Assembly: GCA_016181005.1 (NCBI GenBank)
Contig: JACPAE010000002.1
Coordinates: 1 to 64,000, forward strand
Direction of reading: 5' to 3'
Source of the DNA: Candidatus Aenigmatarchaeota archaeon
GTDB lineage: Archaea > Aenigmatarchaeota > Aenigmatarchaeia > CG10238-14 > SCSR01
DNA: 64,000 nt
The notes beneath the pieces are model-generated. The model saw nothing but the letters and a program-made list of their open reading frames with translations, had not been told where the DNA came from and did not search any database. Below, piece by piece: positions 8,798 through 15,553 of this stretch. The position numbers were made by a program, and so were the translations under genes. How positions within the stretch are numbered: the stretch's first letter is position 1; every line of letters starts with the position of its first letter.

Positions 8798-8914
8798 TGG
8801 GCCCAGAGGGATTTGAACCCTCGACGCTCTGGTTCCTTCCTATCATCTTGGATCAATACGCTTTTTAACATATAGTTAAAAGCCAGGTGCTCTACCATGC
8901 TGAGCTATGGGCCC
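8798..8914 (-). tRNA. tRNA-Lys(UUU) with a 43-nt intron at canonical 37/38 (about 8834-8876)
   Basis: Acceptor GGGCCCA; CCTGG-CTTTTA / A-CCAG flank the insertion; T-arm GAGGGTTCAAATCCCTC. Confidence 0.9.
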
Positions 8915-14287: not shown

Positions 14288-14360
14288 TAAATCACAATAT
14301 AAATTACACTGTTTACTGATAACTATTTAAAAATAAGTGATAAAATAAAGGCTAGTAAAA

Positions 14361-15553
14361 ATGCAAGGTGGAAACTTCCTATTCACATCAGAATCGGTAA
14401 CTGAAGGTCACCCGGATAAAACATACTAGCTATTTGTTAGTTTGTGTCCAAAATTTGTGACCAGATCTCCGACGCTATACTAGACGAATTAATCAAGCAG
14501 GATCCTAACTCTAGGGTGGCTGTAGAAACATTGACTACCACAGGCCTGATAATGGTTGCCGGCGAGGTTACGACAAAGGGCTATGTGGACGTCCAGGGTG
14601 TTGCAAGAGATGTCCTCAAGAGAATTGGCTACGACAAGCCTGAATACGGCTTTAATTATGATGACTGTTCTATTCTTGTCTCGCTGCACGAGCAGAGTCC
14701 TGACATCTCGCAGGGAGTGACTGAAGGTCAGGGTGACGACAAGGAGCAGGGTGCGGGTGATCAAGGATTAATGTTCGGTTATGCCACAAACGAAACACCA
14801 GAACTGATGCCGATGCCAATAGTAATTGCTCACAAATTGGTAAGGAAATTGTCCGAAGTGAGAAAGTCAGACGAGCTCAAATGGCTTAGGCCGGATGGAA
14901 AATCGCAAGTGACAGTTGAATACGAGAACGGCAAGCCGAAGAGAACTCACACTATTGTTGTCTCAGCGCATCATGCTGACATTCCAATGGAGCAGGTGAG
15001 GAAGGAAATTAAGGAGAGAGTTGTTATACCGGTTTGCAAGGAGTGGATGGATGACAAGACTATAGTTCACATCAATCCTACTGGAAGATTTGTAAAAGGC
15101 GGTCCTCCGGCAGATACAGGGCTGACAGGAAGAAAAATTATAGTTGACACTTATGGCGGCTGGGGGCGACATGGAGGAGGATGTTTCTCCGGCAAGGATC
15201 CTTCGAAGGTCGACAGGTCCGCAACTTACATGGCCCGTTATGTAGCGAAAAACATTGTGGCCGCAGGTCTTGCTGAGAGATGTGAAGTTCAGATTGCATA
15301 CGCAATTGGCTTATCAAAGCCGGTTTCCGTTTATGTCAACAGCTTCGGGACAGGAAAAGTTCCTGATCAGAAGATCGAGGAGATTGTAAAGCAGACATTC
15401 GACATGAGGCCCAAAGCCATTACTGAATATCTGCAGCTGAAGAGACCCATTTATGAAAAGACTGCGGCATACGGGCATTTTGGAAGAAGCGAGTCGGAGT
15501 TCACATGGGAGAGGACGGACAAGGCTGAAGAATTAAGGAGTTATTTGAAATGA
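14361..15553 (+). CDS. metK: S-adenosylmethionine synthetase (bacterial-type MetK), interrupted by a 32-nt BHB-like intron; join(14361..14419,14452..15553)
   Basis: Exon 1 [20 protein letters not shown], exon 2 [13 protein letters not shown]...; removal of 14420-14451 gives an uninterrupted 386-aa protein with [13 protein letters not shown]. Confidence 0.93.
14420..14451 (+). other. predicted BHB (tRNA-endonuclease type) intron in metK pre-mRNA
   Basis: Bulge AAA (14418-14420), helix GGAT(14414-14417)/GTCC(14446-14449), bulge AAA (14450-14452), inner helix ACA/TGT + ACTA/TAGT, outer GGTCAC/GTGACC. Confidence 0.85.

Follow-up and report, generated by a model that had tools for sequence, protein, structure and literature searches.

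A probable BHB intron in the active-site motif of an aenigmatarchaeal metK, with counterparts across the phylum

Watanabe is said to have described an intron in the pre-mRNA of cbf5 in Crenarchaeota in 2002. By 2009 no archaeal pre-mRNA splicing had been confirmed beyond cbf5, and further introns had been predicted (Yokobori, 2009; PMC2738675). A 2020 study of EndA substrates added one element in a 5′ UTR and called cbf5 the only other reported case (PMC7714728). The statement in a preliminary description of the present DNA, that BHB introns in protein genes are known mainly from cbf5 and that one in metK would be new, fits both papers. An intron in metK or rtcB was absent from the full-text literature searched; most subscription papers and bioRxiv preprints lie outside that search, and priority is not proven.

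The insert described here interrupts metK in the window, a stretch of 64,000 nt (contig JACPAE010000002.1, positions 1 to 64,000) from a Candidatus Aenigmatarchaeota archaeon. It resembles the crenarchaeal cbf5 intron in placing a BHB or BHB-like motif in coding sequence, in its expected removal by EndA and in patchy loss among relatives. It differs in its gene (a bacterial-type metK), in its phylum and in its position inside an active-site motif and, unlike the cbf5 intron, it is more similar between species than the synonymous sites of its host gene. The HVO_1309 element of Haloferax volcanii (PMC7714728) is an EndA substrate in an mRNA, as the metK intron would be, but lies in the 5′ UTR and interrupts no open reading frame. 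Archaeal tRNA and rRNA introns, of which the window genome also has candidates, share the same helix and bulge geometry and would be expected to use the same enzymes, whereas the metK intron has an mRNA host and forms its structure within coding constraint. The gene and the lineage would be new and the mechanism known, with unusual recurrence and spread.

The sole metK found in the genome is broken at GHPDK-ICDQ by 32 nt at 14420-14451. Exon 1 runs on the forward strand from the ATG at 14361-14363 to 14419, and its residues are kept, with different wobble bases, in the relatives G001, G003 and G145. Exon 2 (A ATT TGT GAC CAG to the stop) follows on the same strand at 14452-15553. From exon 1 into the insert the frame reads GAT AAA ACA TAC TAG, with the TAG at 14427-14429, so that the unspliced message stops after 22 codons (ending GHPDKTY), whereas the spliced product of 386 aa matches three bacterial-type MAT domains in Pfam, namely S-AdoMet_synt_N (residues 5-103, E 9e-45), S-AdoMet_synt_M and S-AdoMet_synt_C (E 2e-69). 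A mechanical ORF list starts the gene at GTG 14444 and reports 369 aa, hiding the intron as the preliminary description had said it would; neither this truncated protein nor the 22-codon peptide has a complete catalytic domain. The coordinates, the TAG and the restored GHPDKICDQ given in that description are exact. A TATA-box-like TATTTAAAAATA at 14324-14335 on the forward strand, 26-37 nt 5′ of the ATG, would yield a metK transcript with no or nearly no leader.

The window genome (G000) is a draft of 739,890 bases in five contigs, 92.2% complete, and within that portion it holds a single bacterial-type metK. A search for an intact second metK found none in it, and a profile search of the same 92.2% complete genome found no archaeal-type MAT (PF01941). 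The missing part of this 92%-complete genome may hold another metK or another endonuclease subunit. Each of the seven intron-bearing genomes has one metK. Because the unspliced message stops after 22 codons, all functional SAM synthetase would depend on splicing. An intronless allele, which the preliminary description had proposed to seek in sister genomes, occurs in G003, whose metK is 85% identical and has an uninterrupted motif.

Folding of a 59-nt segment with RNAfold gave a minimum free energy of -19.3 kcal/mol and recovered the bulges, GGAT/GTCC helix and inner and outer stems first described. All elements lie on the forward strand. The outer exonic stem pairs GGTCAC (14406-14411) with GTGACC (14457-14462), and the central 4-bp helix pairs GGAT of the exon (14414-14417) with GTCC of the intron (14446-14449). 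Two 3-nt bulges, both AAA, lie at 14418-14420 and 14450-14452, with predicted cuts 3′ of 14419 and 14451, and the intron itself forms an inner stem-loop, ACA.ACTAGC-TATTT-GTTAGT.TGT (14421-14445). RNAfold places these stems and bulges in the minimum-energy structure, where the 3′ bulge and the adjoining ATTT form one 7-nt unpaired stretch; the outer stem, the central helix and the inner stem-loop are supported by covariation as well. The insert thus has two 3-nt bulges, a 4-bp helix between them and helices outside. Because AAAA runs stand at both ends, the excised 32 nt can be placed in five ways (14418-14449 to 14422-14453) with an identical product, and the choice of 14420-14451 among them is made on BHB geometry only.

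A comparison of 156 genomes of the phylum found 75 with a bacterial-type metK, and the N-terminal part could be read in nearly all 75. Among those read, the motif GHPDK is intact in 50, carries a stop-containing insert of 30-32 nt in seven, and in 14 contains an in-frame UGA that needs +1 slippage. The seven inserts (32 nt in G000, G001 and G130; 31 nt in G145; 30 nt in G107, G106 and G117) stand at the same codon position, and cutting each bulge after its second base, as proposed for the window gene, gives an exact in-frame GHPDK(I/L/V)CDQ every time. The argument that a length not divisible by three rules out a harmless insertion does not hold generally, as the three 30-nt introns show, all of which contain in-frame stops. 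The metK of G132 was rejected as a further case, being intact at a contig edge, and no intron-like gap was seen in the top 80 named metK relatives.

Pairing was evaluated in a seven-row alignment in which the outer, central and first inner helices were scored. Across the seven sequences 97.8% of cells are paired, as against 18-44% when the partners are slid by 1-3 columns. There are 7 double-change cells (2.1 ± 1.0 in shuffles) and the covariation score is 0.319 (0.150 ± 0.032 in shuffles); none of 500 shuffles matched the observed paired percentage, double-change cells or covariation score. Two weaker measures were reached by shuffles, pairs with a double change in 47/500 and the number of pair types in 42/500. 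The shuffle control ignores relatedness and the slid control does not, and the two agree. The central helix is paired in 28/28 cells, and its first pair, which joins the wobble base of the proline codon in the exon with an intron base, is G-C, G-U, A-U or U-A over the seven genomes. The inner stem ACA/TGT is replaced by ACC/GGT in G001, G145 and G130. The seven-genome alignment therefore contains the compensatory changes looked for in BHB pre-mRNA introns, and the insert lies beyond chance because it recurs at the same codon in six other genomes with pairing and covariation that exceed the controls.

The probability that the 32 nt are a minimal archaeal BHB pre-mRNA intron is put at roughly 0.93. 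This is the best reading because the geometry is canonical, the product is exact in seven genomes, exon and intron show compensatory changes, the gene is single-copy and the genome encodes EndA and RtcB homologues, and on the same grounds the intron proposed in the preliminary description is supported. Folding of the metK transcript would bring exon bases GGTCACCCGGAT together with GTCC and GTGACC across the intron. EndA, the tRNA-splicing endonuclease of the host, would then cut both 3-nt bulges after the second base, and RtcB would join the exons into GAT AAA ATT TGT, restoring GHPDKICDQ. Cleavage and ligation in the cell, the enzymes responsible and any regulatory role are predictions made from the DNA.

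Some other accounts of the same letters have to be weighed. Translational bypassing is known from T4 gene 60 and the yeast-mitochondrial byps, and a ribosome leaving at AAA 14418-14420 and landing at AAA 14450-14452 would skip the 32 nt with the RNA uncut; G000, G001 and G145 do have matching AAA codons around the skipped stretch, with a hairpin between. The landing codon is, however, ATA in G107 and G106 and AAG in G130. With these three mismatches among seven genomes bypassing cannot account for the inserts in general, whereas the BHB cut is exact in 7/7. Bypassing also has no need of a covarying 4-bp exon-intron helix with 3-nt bulges, and equivalent geometry is found in rtcB as well, all of which makes it highly improbable here. 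A ribosome could instead restart at GTG 14444, where the 369-aa frame opens, and make a MetK without its first 18 residues. Such a product would lack the conserved active-site GHPD, which includes His14 and Asp16 (E. coli numbering), and the exon 1 residues that it discards are kept in relatives with synonymous changes, so that this account is very unlikely.

A damaging 32-nt insertion in a decaying metK, or an assembly or sequencing artefact, might be suspected in a draft of five contigs, the more so as uS11 in the same genome is broken by an exact tandem duplication of 23 bp, which may be an assembly error or real damage. Yet six other genomes have an insert at this very site, which contradicts the artefact or decaying gene that the preliminary description had named as its refutation; exon 2 has an open frame of 365 codons (counted from CDQ) and 84% identical to that of G003, the gene is single-copy, and changes within the insert preserve its structure. 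We give decay or artefact hardly any credence. An intein was rejected for an insert of only 30-32 nt with an in-frame stop, as was a group I or II intron, with its ribozyme core of hundreds of nt, for a 32-nt insert; in the window Rfam finds tRNAs and nothing else.

Both enzymes that a BHB intron would call for have homologues in the window genome. The sole EndA homologue found there (G000:C5:69016-69579, L127; about 188 aa) aligns over its length with EndA of M. jannaschii (1a79). Of the Tyr/His/Lys active-site triad Tyr and His are retained, with Ala (IRATMVWAV) in place of Lys by comparison with 1a79. The substitution counts against the proposed reading, and it is not a sequencing error because the sister G003 has the same residue (G003:C2:204832-205395). 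An RtcB ligase homologue is also present. More tRNA genes are found by ARAGORN in the genome once anticodon-loop introns are allowed, among them a 117-nt gene predicted as tRNA-Lys UUU with a 24-nt intron (8798-8914, reverse strand; also found by Rfam), likely a native EndA substrate within the window. Outside the window on the same contig, the 16S rRNA gene has a 37-nt insert (G000:C1, about 173443-173480) that adjoins a universal primer site (GACGGGCGGT...TGTGCAAGG) and is absent in G003; it is probably an rRNA BHB intron, which would defeat common primers.

The gene for the RtcB homologue (C2:74457-76001, minus strand, L128) is itself interrupted twice. Removal of the first insert, of 32 nt, yields CMPDGH-SGYGF, and its central helix has three pairs and a G-A. 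The second, of 31 nt, is a canonical BHB with a CGAT/GTCG helix, bulges ATT and TTT cut after the second base and an inner stem of 9-10 bp, and its removal yields GFDI-NCG. Insert 1 is found at 21-30 nt in eight further genomes (G015, G117, G052, G046, G132, G057, G077 and G114; loci L218, L220, L224, L229, L232, L236, L240 and L242), where the inner stems differ in sequence with pairing intact, and insert 2 also in G046, making two genomes in total. In many relatives RtcB pieces are split at residue 107-108 in open frames of about 800-1000 aa, i.e. by what appears to be an intein-like insertion at the same GFDI-NCG site as insert 2. As rtcB is interrupted by such introns, the expected ligase would itself need its introns joined.

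A simple genome-wide de novo BHB scan of G000 with a coding-potential filter gave no excess, with 59 candidates at true cuts and 71-81 once the cuts were moved by 1-2 nt, which counts against the intron reading; the known BHB cases were not among the candidates that it listed. When protein genes were compared with contig C2 of the sister G003 in search of further splits, only metK and rtcB stood out. The other split-gene matches between the two genomes were rejected as antisense or upstream-extension noise, apart from the 16S rRNA insert and the tandem duplication in uS11. The latter shifts the frame through an exact repeat of 23 bp (AGAGGATCCCAATATTCAAAATC twice; G000:C5, about 172615-172665) and could reflect misassembly or damage that is very recent.

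On a maximum-likelihood tree of metK exon 2 (360 columns, trait columns left out) the intron is scattered, with 6 changes of which at least 4 are forced by well-supported branches, and the intron-bearing G000 adjoins the intronless G003. The UGA type is scattered likewise, with 11 changes, at least 9 of them forced in the same way. The introns of G000, G001, G145 and G130 are 72-91% identical (91% for G001 and G145), as against 31-37% at third positions of fourfold-type codons in the same four metK genes. Part of the intron sequence is constrained by its structure. Because 91% identity is hard to reach by descent when synonymous sites are saturated, the likely cause is strong constraint or a lateral transfer of the intron by itself. 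The scatter together with the similarity suggests that the intron was repeatedly lost or gained, or spread laterally, and we infer that within the phylum it is either old or able to move laterally, and not a one-off. No further copy of it was found elsewhere in G000.

In 14 genomes, each with one metK and no intron, the active-site motif reads GAA GG(G/C) CAT CC(T/C) TGA CAA, with GCA in place of GAA in one of the 14 (L006, L007, L019-L022, L028, L160, L162, L170, L173, L180, L183 and L201). GHPDK is obtained from these genes only by a +1 shift at the proline codon, and a reversed control pattern had no match in any genome. The codons around the UGA vary less than in intact genes: CAT stands in 14/14 UGA-type and 28/48 intact genes, and CCT in 13/14 and 11/48 respectively (Fisher p 3e-6, with no correction for relatedness). 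Of the top 80 named metK relatives, L055 alone matched from residue 15 on, as a frameshift gene would. A call in G154 was rejected as a false pattern match outside metK. Intein-like in-frame insertions also occur in metK of L177, L178 and L180-L183, at sites other than the intron's; they split the gene close to residue 265 or 120, and the open frames measure 765-850 aa.

The layout of the UGA-type genes resembles the +1 programmed frameshift of bacterial prfB (AGG GGG UAU CUU UGA C), and they appear readable only by a putative event of that kind. They differ from prfB in gene, in their archaeal host, in a Pro and not a Leu slip codon and in that the frameshift is putative; the metK of the window has none. 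A review of archaeal recoding knows one proven frameshift in archaea, a -1 event (PMC8211752), and within the literature found the metK case would be the first +1 example. The frameshift version could, as a hypothesis, sense SAM itself, because Trm5, which depends on SAM, places m1G37 on tRNA-Pro and so keeps proline codons from slipping by +1; Trm5/TrmD and m1G37 are the subject of a review (PMC5372744). If this were true, low SAM would lead to more frameshifting and more MetK. That the GHPDK codons are a switch for SAM-synthetase expression, built repeatedly from two unrelated devices, either a BHB intron that spreads laterally or a +1 frameshift of the prfB type at CC(U/C) UGA C, is a speculative proposal that we consider unlikely as it stands.

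Introns of this kind in metK and rtcB across one phylum would mean that protein-gene introns handled by tRNA-splicing enzymes are no peculiarity of Crenarchaeota. ORF callers overlook them, so that essential genes are cut short or broken up. Autoregulation could readily be tested with an rtcB transcript whose ligation depends on RtcB itself, and similar introns in diverged host genes raise the question of how a protein-less 32-nt intron spreads. With a putative +1 frameshift in these GHPDK codons of other relatives, the control of metK would be directly testable in these archaea.
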